Below, in pieces: positions 12,990 to 22,075 of a stretch of DNA of 64,000 nt. Position 1 is the stretch's first letter. Each line of letters opens with the position of its first letter. The translations under genes were made by a program, and so were the position numbers. Source of the stretch: Janthinobacterium sp. 64. GTDB taxonomy: Bacteria; Pseudomonadota; Gammaproteobacteria; Burkholderiales; Burkholderiaceae_D. The notes under the pieces were generated by a model. It saw only the letters and a list, made by a program, of their open reading frames with translations, did no database searches and had not been told where the DNA came from. The DNA lies in NCBI RefSeq assembly GCF_002813325.1, contig NZ_PHUG01000001.1:682001-746000 (forward strand), written 5' to 3'.

Positions 12990-12995
12990 TATAAT
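12990..12995 (+). promoter_or_regulatory. -10 element upstream of purL
   Basis: A perfect TATAAT within GGGTATAATGCG, 85 bases before the purL start. The -35 region (GTCATA at 12966-12971, 18-base spacing) is weak, hinting at an activator or a moderate promoter. No purine operator could be recognised in the leader. Confidence 0.5.
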
Positions 12996-13080
12996 GCGCG
13001 CAAAGGAAATTTGCCGTACGAAAGATATTGTCATACCTACCTTTAACCCGCAGCCACGCTGCATCAACCACCTTCCAATC

Positions 13081-16000
13081 ATGTTGATACTGCCGGGTTC
13101 CAATGCCCTGTCCCATTTCCGTAGCCACCGTCTGTTAAGCCAACTGCAAGCCGTCTCGCCTGCGATTGTTGCCGTACAAGCACGCTATGTCCATTTCATC
13201 GATGCCAGCGCGCCCCTCACGGCCGACGACAGCACGCGCCTTGGCGCCTTGCTGACGTACGGCGAGCCGGCCCAGGCTGACAATACGGAAGGCGCTGCCG
13301 AAGCATTCTTCGTCATTCCCCGTTTCGGCACGATTTCTCCGTGGGCTTCGAAAGCCACCGACATCGCGCACAACTGCGGCATGGCGCACATCAAACGCGT
13401 CGAACGCGGCGTCGCTTTCCGCATCAACCTGAAATCGGGCATCCTGGGCAGCGCGATTCTAGCAGGCAAACTGACGGACGAGCAGGTACAGGCCGTGGCC
13501 GACTTGCTGCACGACCGCATGACGGAATCCGTGCTGCGCAGCGCGGACGACGCGAAGGATCTGTTCCGCACCCTGGAAGCGCGTCCGCTCGAATCGATCG
13601 ACTTGCTGGGGCAGGGCAAGGCCGCGCTGGAAACGGCGAACGTCGAGCTGGGCCTGGCGATGTCGGAAGACGAAATCGACTACCTGGACGCCGCCTTCAC
13701 CAAGGCCGGCCGCAACCCGACGGACGTGGAACTGATGATGTTCGCGCAGGCGAACAGCGAACATTGCCGTCACAAGATCTTCAACGCCGACTGGACCATC
13801 GACGGCGTGGCGCAACCCAAGTCGCTGTTCGGCATGATCAAGAACACGCACGAACTGCAGCCGAAGGGCACCGTCGTCGCCTACAGCGACAATTCGTCCA
13901 TCATGGAAGGCGCGACGGTCTCCCGTTTCTACCCGCGCGGTGCCAACCACGAATATGCGGCATCGACCGAGCTGACGCACACCCTGATGAAGGTGGAAAC
14001 GCATAACCACCCGACGGCCATCTCCCCATTCCCAGGCGCCTCCACGGGCGCGGGCGGCGAGATCCGCGACGAAGGCGCGACGGGCCGCGGCGCCAAGCCA
14101 AAAGCCGGTTTGACCGGTTTCACCGTGTCGAACCTGTCCCTGCCGGATGCCGTGCGCAGCTGGGAAACGGCCGCTTCCGTGACGGCGCCACTGGCTGGCC
14201 GCACGGATGCGGACCAATATGGCAAACCGGAACGCATCGCTTCGCCGCTGCAAATCATGATCGAAGGCCCGCTGGGCGGCGCCGCGTTCTCGAACGAATT
14301 CGGCCGTCCCGTCTTGGGCGGCTACTTCCGCACGTATGAACAGAACGTCGGCGTCGACAAAGACGCCGTGTTCGGCTACCACAAGCCGATCATGATCGCT
14401 GGCGGCATCGGCAATATCTCGGCGCAGCACACGCACAAGAACGACATCCCCGTCGGCAGCCTGCTGGTGCAGCTCGGTGGCCCGGGCATGCGCATCGGCA
14501 TGGGCGGCAGCGCCGCCTCGTCGATGACCACCGGCAGCAACACGGCCGACCTGGACTTCGATTCCGTCCAGCGCGGTAACCCTGAAATGGAACGCCGCGC
14601 CCAGGAAGTCATCAACGCCTGCTGGCAAATGGGCGCGGACAACCCGATCATCTCGATCCACGACGTGGGTGCGGGCGGCTTGTCGAACGCGTTCCCGGAA
14701 ATCACCAACGACGCCAAGCGCGGTGCGATTTTCGACCTGCGCAAAGTGCCGCTGGAAGAATCGGGCATGGCGCCGAAGGAAATCTGGAGCAATGAATCGC
14801 AGGAACGCTACGTTCTGGCCATCGCGCCGGAAAGCCTGCCACTGTTCAAAGCCATGTGCGAACGCGAACGCTGTCTGTTCGCCGCCGTGGGCGTGGCCAC
14901 CGAAGAGCGTCAACTGAAACTGATCGACCCGGAACTCGGCAACGAGCCGGTCGACATGCCGATGGATGTCTTGCTGGGCAAGCCGCCGAAGATGCAACGC
15001 GACGTGATCCACGTGGCCAACGATTTCCCGGCCATCGATCTGACGGGCATGGACTTGAAGGACGTGGCGCAAAAAGTGCTGCTGCTGCCGACCGTGGCCG
15101 ACAAATCGTTCCTGATCACCATCGGCGACCGCAGCGTGGGCGGCATGACCGTGCGCGACCAGATGGTGGGACCATGGCAAGTGCCGGTGGCCGATTGCGC
15201 CGTCACCACCATGAGCTTCGAGGGTTATCTGGGCGAAGCGATGGCCATGGGCGAACGCACGCCGCTGGCCGTCATCGACGCCGCAGCTTCCGGCCGCATG
15301 GCCGTGGGCGAAGCCGTCACCAACATCGCCGCCGCAGCGATTGCCGACATCTCCGACATCAAATTGTCCGCCAACTGGATGGCCGCCTGCGGCCAGCCTG
15401 GCCAGGACGCAGCCTTGTACGACACGGTCAAAGCCGTCGGCATGGACCTGTGCCCGGCGCTGGGCATCAGCATCCCCGTCGGCAAGGATTCGCTGTCGAT
15501 GCGCACGACGTGGAAAGACGACAGCACGGGCGCGGCGAAATCCGTCACGTCGCCGGTGTCGCTGATCGTCTCCTCGTTCGCACCAGTCACCGACGTGCGC
15601 AAGTCGCTCACGCCGCAGCTGAAAATGGACAAGGGCGACACGTCCTTGATCCTGATTGACCTGGGCCGCGGCAAAAACCGTTTGGGCGCTTCCGCCCTGG
15701 CGCAAGTCATGGGGCAGTTAGGCAATGAAACGCCGGACGTCGACAGCGCGGAAGACCTGAAAGGCTTCTTCGCCGCCATTCAAAAGCTCAATAGCGACGA
15801 CAAGCTGCTGGCCTACCATGACCGTTCGGACGGCGGCCTGTATGCCACCCTGACGGAAATGGCCTTTGCCGGCCACACGGGCATGTCCGTCAACCTCGAC
15901 ATGCTGACCATGGAAGGCGAGCATTCCAGCGACTGGGGCGACGCCAAGAACTGGACGGGCCAGGTAGCGGAACGCCGCAACGAACTGACCCTGCGCGCTT

Positions 16001-17118
16001 TGTTCAGCGAAGAGCTGGGCGCCGTCATCCAGGTGCGCGCGGAAGAAAAATCGCTCGTCATGGACGTGCTGCGCACGTTTAATTTGGGCGCCTGCAGCCA
16101 TATCATCGGCAAATTGAATGACCGCGACGTGATCGAATTCACGCGCGACGCCAAGCTGATTTACACCCAGCCGCGCGCGGACCTGCACCGCCTGTGGAGC
16201 GAAACGAGCTGGCGCATCGCCCGCCTGCGCGACAATCCAGCCTGCGCGGACGCCGAATACGACCGCCTGCTGGACGCGCAAGATCCGGGCATGTCGCCGA
16301 TCGTCACGTTTGATCAGAACGAGAACATCGCCGCGCCATTCATCGCCACCGGCGTGCGTCCGCGTGTCGCCATCCTGCGCGAGCAGGGCGTCAACTCGCA
16401 CATCGAGACGGCGTACGTCATGCACCAGGCAGGTTTTACGGCTGTCGACGTGCACATGAGCGACCTGATTGCGGGCCGCGTCAAGCTGGACGACTTCCAG
16501 GGCGTTATCGCCGTGGGCGGCTTCTCGTACGGCGACGTGCTGGGCGCGGGCGAAGGCTGGGCGAAAACGATACTGTTCAACGCCAGCCTGGCAGAACAGT
16601 TCGCGCGCTTCTTCAACCGCAAGGACAGTTTTGGTTTGGGTATCTGCAACGGCTGCCAGATGATGAGCAATTTGAAATCCATCATCCCTGGCGCCCACGC
16701 CTGGCCGAAGTTCACGCGCAACAAGTCGGAGAAATTCGAAGGCCGCTTTGCCATGGTCGAAGTGATGGATTCCCCATCGATCTTCTTCAACGGCATGGCC
16801 GGCACCCAAGCCGGCATCGCCATCGCCCACGGCGAAGGCTACGCCGACTTCTCGCAAACGGGCGACATCACCCAGGTCAGCAAAGCCATGCGTTTTGTGG
16901 ACAACAAGGGTGCTGCCACCGAAGCGTACCCGTACAACCCGAACGGCTCGCCGGAAGGCATCACCTCCGTCACCACGCCAGACGGCCGCTTCACCGTGCT
17001 GATGCCGCACGCGGAGCGCGTGTTCCGCAGCGTGCAGCAGTCCTACCACCCTGAAGCGTGGGGCGAAGATTCGCCTTGGATGCGCATGTTCAGGAATGCA
17101 CGGAAGTTTGTGGGGTAA
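13081..17118 (+). CDS. purL: Phosphoribosylformylglycinamidine synthase
   Basis: A 1345-aa single-chain (large-type) FGAM synthase; E. coli PurL has 1295 aa. It converts FGAR, glutamine and ATP to FGAM in purine synthesis. The N-terminal linker and the ATP-binding domains are clear ([38 protein letters not shown]). The C-terminal glutaminase carries its nucleophile in GICNGCQMM (Cys 1189) and [12 protein letters not shown] 13081 ([14 protein letters not shown]) matches the usual PurL beginning; the open frame upstream to 12994 overlaps the promoter. A terminator follows at 17181. Confidence 0.97.
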
Positions 17119-17180
17119 TTCAGCTATTTTCGGCGCGGCGCCTTGGTTCAGGGCGCTGCTGCTGGGGTAGGAATGAGAAA

Positions 17181-17208
17181 GCCGCTGTCGGGAGGCAGCG
17201 GCTTTTTT
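17181..17208 (+). terminator. Rho-independent terminator of purL
   Basis: Stem GCCGCTG/CAGCGGC with an 8-base loop followed by six T residues, 63 bases after the purL stop. GC content collapses immediately after it, marking the left edge of the AT-rich islet. Confidence 0.85.
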
Positions 17209-17284
17209 AATTATTGAAAATTCTGTTTTTAGTTTTGATAGAAGTGCGAATAAATCTGTAGAAGAAAAAACGTTTGAACGTAAT

Positions 17285-19546
17285 TTAGTATGTGCTTGGA
17301 GTTTTTCGTTTCTTTTCTTTAGATTTTAAATTTTCACTCTTCACAATATTATTTGAGGTTATTGATAAATTCAATATCCCATTTGGCCCGCCTCGCTCTA
17401 GAGAACTTGCAATTGAAAGATGGCGAATTGCTCTGCTTGCTCCCAAATACATCCGTGACACATATCTGCGTCTTGCACCTTGACTTATGTGTTCGACAGA
17501 AAGTTCCACTTCATCACAATTTATGAGGAATACTGTATCAAATTGTAATCCAGCTACATACTCAGGCATGCTGAAAACACATCTGTTTTTTGCATAGCGT
17601 AAATCTTTCATATCTTCACGTGAGGTTATTGCTATAAATTTGTCTTGTATTCTTCCTGCGTCACGATAAATGCTAAAAAGCTTTTCATTTAGACATAACA
17701 CGGCAACATCGTTTCCTTTTGCGGGGAGACTTTTTGCGGCATAAATGGCTTGTTCAAATATGGAATCCACCAGCTCAGTGTTATTTTTGAAAATTTGTAA
17801 TGTTGGAATTTCCCCGCTAGGTTGAGCAGATTGTCCTATATATGTATTAAATTCACCTTCTAGGTCAATTGCTGGAAATGACCCGTCTAAATCACGAAGT
17901 AAAGCAGTAATTTGAGGTGATGATCGGTACACTGTTTTTAGGTCAACGGGGATTGATTCTCCTACGCCTGGGTTTCTAAATCTTGAAATTCCGTTGCCAA
18001 AGTTTGTGTCACGGGTACTTTGTTTTAGATCGTATGCCATGTATAGTGGCCAGCGACCTGAAACGCCTGCTCGAGATTTGAATAAATTTTGCAAAACCAT
18101 TGTTTCGACGCGAGTAAAATAGTGATATTCATCTACAAATACCCGATCAAATCCATCTCGTTCTTTTAGTTGATTCCATTCATGTGTTGAAAGATATCTT
18201 CCGAAATCAGCTACCATCTGATCCATGCTAAGATATTTTTCTTTATGAAGCTCAAGGCAATATGCACTATGTATTTCTAAGAGAATTTTTCTGTGATTCA
18301 TAGTAGGTAATGACATTTGCCATGCCTCTCGATCTTCTTTTATATATCGTTCAGCATCAGTGGTGCCTTTTCTAATATTCTCTGCATCAATTGAACAAGC
18401 AAACTCATTCATTATTTCTTCAATAAGTGCATCTCGGGCGTCTAAGTCCTCCATTCTATCTGAAAAATCAGGGCATTCATTTAGTAGTCCGAATTTAATT
18501 CTTGCATCTGAGTTGGTTTGATTAATTGAATCGTTAATCATTACTCGTTGATAATCCCGTCCTTCGATTCCATCTAATGAGAGCGGGCTTAGTCCCTTTT
18601 TCTCATACCCTAACTGTAATTGAGCCAGTTCATAAAGTGTGCCGATCCATAGCCTAGGTTTTCCATCTTCTGTAAATAGATTTGCCCACCTTTCAGATGG
18701 ATCTAATGCATATAACATGCCTCGGACTACTTCATGTGCAAGGGCTGAGCTATGCGTTAAAAATGCGAATCGATAATCTAAATTTTTATCCGCAGCGTCA
18801 TAAAGATCTCGCAAACACTTTACGACCATTGCTTGTGTTTTTCCAGTGCCTGCGGCACCTCGTAACCTGAGAGGCCCATCGGTCGACTTATTTACAAAAT
18901 TTAGTTGTTCTGAGTTAAGTCGTTTTTCGTACCATTCTAACAAGGTCCCACTTCCTGCTAGACGTAGACCCAAAGGTTCACTTAGTACAATCCCGTAATT
19001 TCCTCCATTTATTATTGGCTGAATATCGGTGATTAATGCATCAACGATCTGCTCCATTGCAAAAGTGTAACACTCAATGTCGATAGGAACATTGTCCAGA
19101 TCTAATGCTTTTGATGTTACCGCAAATGCATAAATATTTGCTGTTCCGGCCGGTGATCTATCAAAACATATTCGTTCAACATTTCCACGTAAATATGACT
19201 CAGCATAGACTGATAATCTTGAACCTGCATGAAATTTTTGCCATGGAACGGGTACTGAAATGCCACGATCAAACTGTGTTAGGGCAACCCGAATTATTCG
19301 TTCAAAAACATTTCGACTTCTAGCGCTAGAGGAAAAGACACCATTCTCACCAATATATATTACGAGATAACCGCTGTTTTCGTCTGCTGCTTCCGATAGG
19401 ATGTAGATATTATCTCCTATTACAACTCGACGCAATTTCCCAGATGTTTCAGGCAATTTAAACTCGCGAAACCATTCATCTTCCACTAGGGCTGAATCAA
19501 GTAGAGGAAGAGAATATTGATCAATTACTAATATTTTTGGTTTCAT
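17285..19546 (-). CDS. UvrD-like superfamily 1 helicase in AT-rich islet
   Basis: A 753-aa protein. Residues 1-220 form a domain I do not recognise. From 230 follows an SF1A helicase core: Walker A GAAGTGKT (230-237), Walker B VFVDEYHYF (469-477, with Tyr-His where UvrD has Ala-Gln), a motif IV-like KTVYRSSPQI, a divergent motif V (MPEYVAGLQFDTVFLINCDE) and motif VI SRMYLGASRAIRHL. The C-terminal 30 residues are lysine-rich. No nuclease motif is evident. Its start overlaps the stop of the upstream gene by ATGA, so the two are translationally coupled. Base composition is about two-thirds A+T, unlike every neighbour. An anti-phage or DNA-processing role is inferred. Confidence 0.82.
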   Translation of the reverse strand: MKPKILVIDQYSLPLLDSALVEDEWFREFKLPETSGKLRRVVIGDNIYILSEAADENSGYLVIYIGENGVFSSSARSRNVFERIIRVALTQFDRGISVPVPWQKFHAGSRLSVYAESYLRGNVERICFDRSPAGTANIYAFAVTSKALDLDNVPIDIECYTFAMEQIVDALITDIQPIINGGNYGIVLSEPLGLRLAGSGTLLEWYEKRLNSEQLNFVNKSTDGPLRLRGAAGTGKTQAMVVKCLRDLYDAADKNLDYRFAFLTHSSALAHEVVRGMLYALDPSERWANLFTEDGKPRLWIGTLYELAQLQLGYEKKGLSPLSLDGIEGRDYQRVMINDSINQTNSDARIKFGLLNECPDFSDRMEDLDARDALIEEIMNEFACSIDAENIRKGTTDAERYIKEDREAWQMSLPTMNHRKILLEIHSAYCLELHKEKYLSMDQMVADFGRYLSTHEWNQLKERDGFDRVFVDEYHYFTRVETMVLQNLFKSRAGVSGRWPLYMAYDLKQSTRDTNFGNGISRFRNPGVGESIPVDLKTVYRSSPQITALLRDLDGSFPAIDLEGEFNTYIGQSAQPSGEIPTLQIFKNNTELVDSIFEQAIYAAKSLPAKGNDVAVLCLNEKLFSIYRDAGRIQDKFIAITSREDMKDLRYAKNRCVFSMPEYVAGLQFDTVFLINCDEVELSVEHISQGARRRYVSRMYLGASRAIRHLSIASSLERGGPNGILNLSITSNNIVKSENLKSKEKKRKTPSTY

Positions 19547-20409
19547 CTTATTTCCTTTGGGAAAATCTTTTCAATTAAAATATCTGCAGCCTCACCAGAG
19601 ACCTTTTCGAATGGAGCGGGCATGCCAATTCGAGAAAAAAGGAATGAGAATTTCTGAACAACTGCGTACCTTAAGTTGTCATTAAATCTACCTATTCTAT
19701 GAAATGAATTTTTTTGGCCTACTATTTTTTCTTCTAGTTCTGAATTAAATATTAAATTTGATTTGGTCGTTGATATTGATCTTAAAAGAATAATGAAGCA
19801 AAAATCATCCTCGCCTGGAATTTCAGGTACCACAAAAAAATCTGGAAACCCGTCGCTAGAATTTAAATATTCACGAATTCTACTTTCTTGTGTTTTTTTA
19901 TCTATTCCTACAATTTCCCAGCATTGGCATAGAGTGTGAAGTCTATTTTTCTTAGGCGGTCTGATCGATAGTTCGATTCCCTTCAGCGTGCTTTCTAATT
20001 TTTCTTCAATTTTTTTATCTTTTGGGTATATTAAATTGAGAATTTCCGAAGCAGATTTTTCTAGAAGCCACTCGCATAGATTTGAATGAGATAGTTCGGA
20101 AAGTTTTTGATGATTTTTTCTTATAATGGAATTTATTTTATCTAGGCAATATGTTGAGTATTTGGCACTAAATTTTCGCAATTGTTCTTCGCACCAAATA
20201 TTTTCCAGATATTCCATTGCCGGTATTATTTCCAGCCATGAATAGTTGGTTCCTGACTTCTTTTGTGCTATGTCGCAATCCGCCGTTAGTACGAATCCCC
20301 ATTGTGCTCTTTTATTTTTCCTATTTGGATTTTGCTTTATTATATCGCCCTGGCGTAGCTCTTGATTTGTTTCTACAGAGGTAAAAGATTCACTCATTTT
20401 TATTCGCAT
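19543..20409 (-). CDS. Unknown protein, partner of the islet helicase
   Basis: A 288-aa, lysine- and isoleucine-rich protein with no family I can name. The N-terminal region has a distinctive block, ELRQGDIIKQ then WGFVLTADCDIAQKKSG (residues 37-53), whose Cys-Asp pair could be a functional site. There is no signal peptide and no membrane segment. It is the first gene of the two-gene unit; the helicase start codon lies inside its stop. ATG 20409 has AAGGAT almost touching it, so ATG 20397 (MSESFTSVE) is a possible alternative. The A+T richness matches the helicase and indicates joint acquisition. Confidence 0.7.
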   Translation of the reverse strand: MRIKMSESFTSVETNQELRQGDIIKQNPNRKNKRAQWGFVLTADCDIAQKKSGTNYSWLEIIPAMEYLENIWCEEQLRKFSAKYSTYCLDKINSIIRKNHQKLSELSHSNLCEWLLEKSASEILNLIYPKDKKIEEKLESTLKGIELSIRPPKKNRLHTLCQCWEIVGIDKKTQESRIREYLNSSDGFPDFFVVPEIPGEDDFCFIILLRSISTTKSNLIFNSELEEKIVGQKNSFHRIGRFNDNLRYAVVQKFSFLFSRIGMPAPFEKVSGEAADILIEKIFPKEIR

Positions 20410-20492
20410 ATCCTTTTGATGTTTGTTATTTTTCAGGGGCGTATGTTGTTGCTTTTATTCTATTGCTAATTAATTGAGAATTAATGTAAAAA

Positions 20493-21299
20493 TTATATAT
20501 TTTGCGCCACCCCCACAATCACCACCGCCGACGGCACCAGCAAAAACTGCGCAATCAGCGTCCCCGCCAATCTGCTCCCCACCAGCCACACCACCGCGCG
20601 CCGGAATTGCGATTCTTCGATCTTGCCCTCGATGACGTCATCCGTCATGCCCGACATGTGCGGGTCGATGAAGACGGCCATCATGATTGTGGCGCCGCCG
20701 TTGATGATTGATGACAGCGTGCTGGAGGTCACGCGCACGCTGGGGTCCAGCACGCCCGCGTACAGGGCCGCGAAGACGCCTACCGTCCACAGGGCCGTGG
20801 CGATGACGTTCATGGCTGTCATGGAAATCGATACGCCGGATTGTTGGCGCAGGCCCGTGACGTTGGCGGGCTTGGGCAGGCTGGCGGAGGTCTTGAGGTA
20901 GGGCAGGCCGCCCTTGAAGACGGCGTGCAGCAGCAGTTTTGGTACCGACCTGTGCACCTGGAAATGCTCGACGGCGCGGCAGAAAGCGCGCTGGAAGGTG
21001 GGGATAAGGATTGCGCCCAGTATCGTCGCCAGGCTGGCGGAGAACAGCAGCCAGCGGAAGTCGACCAATAAGGTGCTGGCGGCAACATGGTGGTCTATGC
21101 GCGTTTCCACGCGCTTGGCCAGGAATGGTCCAAGGAATGAGTTCGAAGTGCGCGACAGCAGCATCAGAATGCTGAACAGGGCCAGCGACACGGCGATGCG
21201 CCGCGTGCGGATGCCGGCGATGCGCACGGAGTAGGCGAGGGTGCCGATGATGTGGATGATGAACGTCAGTGCGCAAATCAACAGCAATTGCTTGTCCAT
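20493..21299 (-). CDS. amj: Amj family lipid II flippase (DUF2837)
   Basis: A 268-aa polytopic membrane protein of the family of B. subtilis Amj, the alternate lipid II flippase to MurJ. The N terminus LTFIIHIIGTLAYSVRIAGI, then SLALFSILMLLSRTSNSFLG is the family hallmark, and length matches. It would move the peptidoglycan precursor across the inner membrane. ATG 21299 has AAGG five bases upstream; a GTG one codon earlier is less likely. The gene resumes normal high GC right after the AT-rich islet. Assignment is by recognition of the family pattern, not by alignment. Confidence 0.8.
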   Translation of the reverse strand: MDKQLLLICALTFIIHIIGTLAYSVRIAGIRTRRIAVSLALFSILMLLSRTSNSFLGPFLAKRVETRIDHHVAASTLLVDFRWLLFSASLATILGAILIPTFQRAFCRAVEHFQVHRSVPKLLLHAVFKGGLPYLKTSASLPKPANVTGLRQQSGVSISMTAMNVIATALWTVGVFAALYAGVLDPSVRVTSSTLSSIINGGATIMMAVFIDPHMSGMTDDVIEGKIEESQFRRAVVWLVGSRLAGTLIAQFLLVPSAVVIVGVAQNI

Positions 21300-21452
21300 C
21301 ACAACCTTGCAGTAAAGAAAATGTCATTCCATGCTGCCATGGAGTTACTTATTTTTCAACTGCAAATAAGATAATTTTCTTATTAATTGGGTTTGGTGGT
21401 GTTTTGGGCGTTTGTATGCAGTTGGCGGTTTTTCACCCCAAAGGCAGAAACT

Positions 21453-21479: not shown

Positions 21480-21619
21480 GGCCCTTGCTCTGGGTTTGGC
21501 TATGCTTTCATCGGAGGCAAGATTCGTTCCCGCCGCTTGCATTCCACCCCCGCGCCCTCATCTGGGTGGCAATGGTAGCCTGTAGCGCTGCCTCATTTGA
21601 ACCAACCAGGAGAACCGCC

Positions 21620-22075
21620 ATGAGTTTCGATTCCTTTCTGTCCAAACTGAAGACCAAAGCCAGTGAACTGAAAACCGAAGCGCTGAAGTACAAGAACAAG
21701 GATTTCCTGAATGCCGCGATGGCGGGTTCGGCCTTGATTTCCATGGCCGACGGCAGCGTCAGTGCGGAAGAGAAGCAGAAGATGGTCAAATTCATTGAAA
21801 GCAATGATGCGCTGTCGGTGTTTACCACCACGGACGTGATCAAGGCGTTCCAGGACTATGTCGGCCAGCTGGAGTTCGACAAGGATATCGGCGAAGCCAA
21901 GGCGTATCAGGCGCTGGGCAAGATGAAGTCGAATGTGGAGGCGTCGCGCTTGCTGGTGCGCATGATTATCGCCGTCGCTTCGTCAGACGGCAATTTCGAC
22001 GCCAACGAGCAGCGCGTGGCCAGCAAGATCGCGCGCGAGCTGGGCTTGACTCCGGCGGAGTTCGAGCTGCAGTAA
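21620..22075 (+). CDS. TerB family tellurite resistance protein
   Basis: A 151-aa acidic, helical protein starting at ATG 21620 with AGGAG nine bases upstream. The TerB pattern is clear: FLNAAMAGSALISMADGSVS, then EEKQKMVKFIE in the first half and LLVRMIIAVASSDGNFDANE in the second, each with the acidic loop that binds metal in TerB. TerB proteins act at the inner face of the membrane in Ter stress systems. It lies 2.8 kb before a TerY-like vWA/phosphatase/kinase operon, which may be functionally related. Substrate or stress is unknown. Confidence 0.88.
   Translation: MSFDSFLSKLKTKASELKTEALKYKNKDFLNAAMAGSALISMADGSVSAEEKQKMVKFIESNDALSVFTTTDVIKAFQDYVGQLEFDKDIGEAKAYQALGKMKSNVEASRLLVRMIIAVASSDGNFDANEQRVASKIARELGLTPAEFELQ

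Follow-up and report, generated by a model that had tools for sequence, protein, structure and literature searches.

What does the AT-rich two-gene islet between purL and amj of Janthinobacterium sp. 64 do, and how did it come to lie there? The islet was analysed within a stretch of 64,000 nucleotides (contig NZ_PHUG01000001.1, positions 682,001 to 746,000), hereafter called the window, and consists of a gene for a superfamily 1A (SF1A) helicase and a gene for a second protein, here called the partner. A first-pass annotation of this DNA had proposed a mobile two-gene defence unit of a new or poorly described type. That proposal is supported by the variability of the site, the co-occurrence of the two proteins and the lack of a matching system model, and the helicase-partner unit is probably an undescribed bacterial antivirus system. 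The interval between amj and purL is itself a genus-wide hotspot for defence cassettes, with conserved core flanks and variable cargo enriched in defence families.

Conservation of the operon

Homologues of the helicase and the partner do co-occur, whichever of the two is used as the seed, and the two genes form a genuine, conserved operon. The protein collection yielded 47 partner matches and at least 325 helicase matches, the window's own included. Genome loci were located with the helicase alignment (n = 16), and the partner profile was run on the fetched loci. The partner was found directly upstream in 14 of 14 genome loci containing a family helicase and readable upstream sequence; this count leaves out L083, in which the contig edge falls within the helicase (the remainder is on L086 of that genome), and L087, a short 37% helicase fragment without a partner. 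In L073 and L085, the reading frame of the partner is broken in two. It also lies beside the helicase in five named records (L036–L040), chosen among the records in which the helicase was matched (91 plasmid, 2 phage), and in four other relatives (L002–L005). Gene overlap or near-abutment was likewise seen at the pair loci of relatives.

Partner-seeded searches identified four genomes besides that of the window (one in the order, three in the phylum), and the helicase was adjacent in all four, one of which carries a broken partner (L136/L137). Among viral contigs, searches with each protein returned the same two contigs, both genes being present. The exception was a Shewanella plasmid with a truncated partner and no helicase match. 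Pairwise identities of partner and helicase were correlated over 20 loci (Mantel r 0.905, reached in 0 of 5000 permutations), some of which is produced by shared descent alone.

Features of the two proteins

The helicase has intact ATPase motifs. The first-pass annotation had assigned it to SF1A on the basis of a Walker A motif at residues 230–237 and a DEYH Walker B motif; both are placed as claimed (G230–T237 and residues 472–475). Diverse relatives retain both the Walker A motif and the DE pair, and the motifs are intact in 13 of 13 sequences read by eye. The UvrD-helicase family (E 1.2e-8) was the sole Pfam match above cut-off for the pair, and a fold match to UvrD/Rep extended over residues ~201–745. 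Motifs and core fold together place the protein in the UvrD/SF1A group. The unassigned N-terminal domain that had been described as fused to the helicase is present, outside the rows of the fold match, but has a length of ~200 aa and not 220.

The partner is predicted to fold as a MazF/Kid/CcdB-type, SH3-like barrel formed by about residues 17–63 and 184–262, within which the model places a helical insert of ~120 residues. Its VLTADCDIAQ block, previously called conserved-looking, proves to be conserved, with A43, C45 and D46 identical in all of 32 diverse partners. The full set of invariant residues is Q20, G21, A43, C45, D46, Q252 and G262. MazF catalysis depends on an Arg and a Thr, and neither was evident in a weak alignment of the N-terminal piece of the partner.

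Profile searches did not extend the resemblance. The window partner had no Pfam or PADLOC match and only a chance NCBIfam match at 0.099, and 0 of 47 partners matched the PemK sequence profile (PF02452). Alignment of the partner with 16 PemK proteins by hhalign was not significant, either whole (P 0.35 and 0.41) or as two pieces (0.022 and 0.083). A search of PDB sequences with the partner profile (hmmsearch) recovered no MazF and only chance-like matches to helical proteins (best 2.9e-6), no viral model was matched by Foldseek at 0.001 or lower, and a scan of genome contigs with the partner alone gave no match.

In crude global alignments against the window, the L079 partner was 38% identical and its helicase 58%, the partner being the less conserved among closer relatives. 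Such lower conservation might be what a part in conflict with phage would show; it is not relied upon because the order reverses in the most distant group (L039 partner 30%, helicase 23%, again by crude global alignment).

The amj-purL slot

The pair had been described as strongly AT-rich and set between a high-GC purL terminator and amj, which is borne out by a GC content of 32–42% across the pair vs 61–67% in purL and 63–64% in amj. The AT-rich interval spans from the amj stop to the purL terminator hairpin. The coupling of the two genes by an ATGA overlap, likewise reported, agrees with their open reading frame (ORF) coordinates (Table 1). In a listing of ORFs of at least 80 aa, amj is separated from the partner by a gap of only 83 nt, and the next gene is the helicase. 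The labels purL and amj are those of the first-pass annotation.

Counting that of the window, 28 of the 40 genus genomes had a match to amj, and 39 of 40 a match to the C-terminal part of purL. Because purL lies beyond amj in 25 of the 27 other amj-bearing genomes, 26 slots including the window were available for comparison. All of them are filled except L053, which measures 151 bp and is empty, leaving 25 filled slots. Carriage of the pair at this position is not universal: the pair occurs in the window's slot only and in none of the 25 others, and the 24 other filled slots hold different DNA of 721–3436 bp with a GC of 33–42% vs 63–65% in the adjoining purL. Only short ORFs are present in L046 (150 aa) and L063 (84 aa), whose contents may be remnants. 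The main cargo gene is codirectional with amj in 22 of the 25 filled slots.

In 0 of 25 filled slots does the nearest relative by purL share the cassette at the DNA level, and the three cassettes that recur do so in non-nearest pairs, with identities of 98.2%, 92.0% and 74.7% vs purL identities of 94.8%, 94.7% and 95.0%, respectively. Read by eye, homology in most slots is lost within the final codons of amj and regained at the purL terminator hairpin, with a different hairpin in L048, L049 and L063. No integrase was seen among 20 scanned cargo proteins; slot L067 additionally has ORFs judged by eye to resemble insertion sequences. Homologous recombination in both flanking core genes is the probable route by which the slot is refilled.

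Of the 24 filled non-window slots, 18 contributed a total of 20 proteins to the cargo scan. Three of the remaining six slots (L060, L062, L064) repeat scanned cassettes, L044 looks by eye like L043, and only short ORFs are present in L046 and L063. PADLOC matches at 1e-10, each a match of a protein and not proof of a complete system, were obtained for 12 of the 20: a dGTPase, a dCTPase, PDC-S06, HerA, SIR2, a GmrSD_N protein, two Old proteins, DUF3800, Drt8, an Old/AriA-like ATPase and a SIR2-domain protein. As a control, the longest non-overlapping window ORFs of at least 200 aa were scanned, purL and amj included and spurious ORFs possible; 1 of 29 matched at this cut-off (Fisher p 1.4e-5 for the difference). 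This control match is RtcR-type, its three PADLOC rows of one member each being counted as one protein and amounting to at most three. The window's own pair would fail the 1e-10 cut-off.

The eight cargo proteins lacking such a match are a HATPase protein (L042), a P-loop protein found in two species (L047, also in L064), two ORFs of a three-gene ParA-led unit (L054), a DUF6119 protein (L055), a 206-aa protein (L061), a weakly ApeA-like protein (L065) and a DUF4062 protein (L066). These, with the ParA-led unit as a whole, are candidate undescribed defence genes. The short ORF of the L063 interval resembles, by eye, a RelA/SpoT-type remnant.

AT-richness is not a constant trait of the pair, which is within 3 GC points of its flanks in 7 of 14 genome loci and at least 8 points below them in the other 7. 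The cargo of the amj-purL slot is AT-rich throughout.

For the 12 genomes without an amj match, the downstream flank of purL was read in 11, the twelfth having no purL match. An AT-rich gene was found in two of these flanks (L125, L127), the purL end was not located in L126, and no AT-rich ORF of at least 100 aa lay beside purL in 8 of the 11. In G027 and G034, where amj is away from purL, the one readable purL flank had no AT-rich gene.

Core-gene defence hotspots are reportedly also present in P. aeruginosa. The amj-purL hotspot is a further example of this known kind with unusually small cassettes, and offers a clean natural case of single defence cassettes swapped between two core genes. 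Hotspots of E. coli, as presented in the accessible text of PMC10121019, have conserved flanks and variable cargo with known systems, some without a detectable mobile element. The cargo between amj and purL differs in being a small AT-rich cassette of 0.7–3.4 kb, usually with one main gene, and in mostly ending at the purL terminator.

Distribution and genomic neighbourhoods

The pair is rare and patchy. Helicase matches were found in 5 of 198 relatives (E 1e-3, own genome included), two others within the genus being located elsewhere than amj-purL. A class-wide helicase search at 1e-60 returned 1 of 369, the window's own only, and the pair was detected in 2 of 399 genomes of the order and 4 of 398 of the phylum (1e-6, own included). 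A same-genus species (G007) has a distant copy of the pair on contig 32 (L068; helicase 39%), away from its own amj-purL slot (L046), which has just a short ORF.

Escherichia accounts for 79 of the 91 plasmid records that carry helicase relatives, and all of these relatives are below 60% identity. One phage, Klebsiella phage ST16-OXA48phi5.4 (present as two records), carries the pair, and related DNA was detected in 113 of 5426 E. coli genomes, with coverage of at least 80% in 109. All 113 E. coli copies are on plasmids and none is chromosomal. In the phage, the pair is flanked on each side by small hypothetical ORFs and located between the portal gene and the replication gene. In P2-like phages, the locus next to the portal gene is a defence hotspot according to the accessible part of Vassallo et al. 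(PMC9519451).

Some neighbourhoods of the pair are rich in defence genes. The neighbour scan comprised 10 proteins picked by eye, which shows that defence neighbours exist and gives no rate. In Sinorhizobium psoraleae (L072), the pair begins ~120 bp past a three-gene set of the cyclic-oligonucleotide-based anti-phage signalling system (CBASS; phospholipase effector 2e-102, cyclase 6e-149, E1-E2 1e-235), and Drt2-type pieces follow ~3 kb downstream. In L074, a CBASS-type phospholipase lies ~5 kb from the pair; the L080 copy adjoins a type II methyltransferase and Vsr. A multiubiquitin-ThiF-DUF6527 operon is found within 3 kb of the pair on two Agrobacterium plasmids and one Undibacterium plasmid (L036, L037, L038; two classes), perhaps as a recurrent partnership. 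The single E. coli plasmid inspected, whose annotation is incomplete, had no annotated defence neighbour of the pair.

Comparison with known systems

No system model tried matches the pair over its length. Gabija also has two genes including a UvrD/SF1A helicase, and GajB models were the best PADLOC matches for window-family helicases. The match was weak for the window helicase (8.2e-5, with RTasHel at 1.5e-4) vs 3.5e-14 for the E. coli plasmid homologue. The GajB profile did not cover the helicase in full; the best window stretch was residues 396–485, and more distant homologues matched better, again in separate stretches. Window-family helicases differ further in their additional N-terminal domain. 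Membership of Gabija was ruled out by the different partner: in that of the window, Pfam detects no domain of the ATPase, TOPRIM or OLD type, no OLD, AAA or TOPRIM family was among the matches of 47 partners, and 6 divergent partners had no Pfam or PADLOC match.

Helicase + DUF2290, as set out in the available text of Rousset et al. (2022, PMC9122126), comprises a helicase and a small partner encoded by two genes in phage and satellite hotspots. The window pair is likewise a helicase with a small partner; membership was rejected, no DUF2290 match being found in the 47 partners or the 6 divergent ones. Relative to MazF/Kid/CcdB proteins, the partner differs in its predicted insert, in having no significant profile match and no evident MazF catalytic residues, and in the absence of a small antitoxin gene from the listing of ORFs of at least 80 aa.

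The pair was not found in open-access main texts; supplements and closed journals lay outside this search, and a description elsewhere is possible. The accessible main text of PMC13092281 contains neither "UvrD" nor "helicase". The pair is apparently an undescribed module of the helicase-plus-partner kind.

Proposed function

A defence role for the pair is considered highly likely. The helicase, with its extra N-terminal domain, would load on DNA ends or intermediates of phage replication and serve as sensor and motor. The partner, with its predicted barrel, long helical insert and invariant Q-G, A-x-C-D, Q and G set, would be an effector held in complex with or delivered by the helicase, and once the helicase is engaged would stop growth or phage propagation, making the host phage-resistant. 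These roles are assigned by analogy, a DNA motor and a small conserved partner in defence contexts being likened to the division of labour in Gabija. There, according to the accessible text of PMC10952713, GajB binds DNA termini and promotes GajA activity. Given a defence role, we lean slightly towards a toxin-like effector for the partner. The partner might poison the cell, cleave nucleic acid or simply adapt the helicase. The whole explanation, a mobile anti-phage module with helicase as sensor and motor and barrel partner as effector, has about an even chance of being right. If it holds, bacterial immunity gains a further helicase-plus-partner module, widely dispersed and apparently undescribed, in which a toxin fold is connected with a DNA motor.

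More tentatively, the pair may represent a new class of abortive infection in which an SF1A helicase, and not a small antitoxin, both guards and triggers a MazF/CcdB-fold effector. Such an effector would have a new active site (Q20, C45, D46, Q252) and an insert docking on the N-terminal domain of the helicase, and the class would spread via plasmids, P2-like phages and an integrase-free single-cassette slot.

Within a defence role, the assignments could also be reversed or merged. In that case, phage replication intermediates would be unwound or stripped by the helicase as effector, and the partner with its predicted MazF-type fold would recruit or license the helicase as an adaptor or sensor without catalysis of its own. 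The sole recognisable catalytic machinery is indeed in the helicase, and the partner has neither evident MazF residues nor a PemK match, while its large insert would suit protein binding. However, the partner invariants, Q20, C45, D46 and Q252 among them, resemble an active or ligand site, and with no Pfam nuclease domain in either protein, unwinding alone would need to block the phage. We regard this arrangement as possible and clearly short of probable.

An addiction module of toxin-antitoxin type would serve to stabilise plasmids, prophages and islands, any defence being a by-product, and would have the partner as toxin and the helicase as its neutraliser. It draws on the predicted MazF/CcdB-type fold, the regular two-gene organisation and the exclusively plasmid-borne E. 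coli copies. A 753-aa ATPase would be an unusual antitoxin, however, and the many defence-type cassettes of the chromosomal slot are swapped, not retained; this explanation is unlikely. Still less likely is an accessory DNA repair or recombination pair that has no defence role and was moved by chance. The UvrD/Rep core would fit, and many repair helicases share weak GajB similarity; against this, the pair is rare and patchy, travels on phage and plasmids, lies beside defence operons in some genomes and sits in a defence-rich slot. An ordinary housekeeping helicase was ruled out by the patchy, mobile distribution.

Features of the window locus and minor observations

The features of the locus are collected in Table 1.

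Table 1 Coordinates of the helicase-partner pair and its flanks in the window.
Feature	Position	Strand	Description
purL	12994-17118	+	Distal gene flanking the slot
purL terminator	17180-17216	none	Hairpin, then T run; distal edge of cassette slot; similar hairpin in most relatives
Helicase gene	17285-19546	-	753 aa; ~200-aa N-terminal domain without assignment, then UvrD/Rep-type SF1A core with intact motifs
ATGA overlap	19543-19546	-	Start/stop overlap of 4 nt coupling partner and helicase genes
Partner gene	19543-20409	-	288 aa; predicted MazF/Kid/CcdB-type barrel with helical insert
amj	20493-21302	-	Proximal slot edge; final codons differ with cassette

Three genomes (L121, L122, L124) lack both an amj match and an AT-rich gene next to purL. 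The ORF adjoining purL in L122 and L124 resembles window ORF 21485-22075, and amj and the cassette may therefore have arrived together. The empty slot L053 has a partial second copy of the 3' part of purL on the far side of amj. In L064–L067, amj matches in gapped pieces, and the gene looks broken in several cassette-bearing species.
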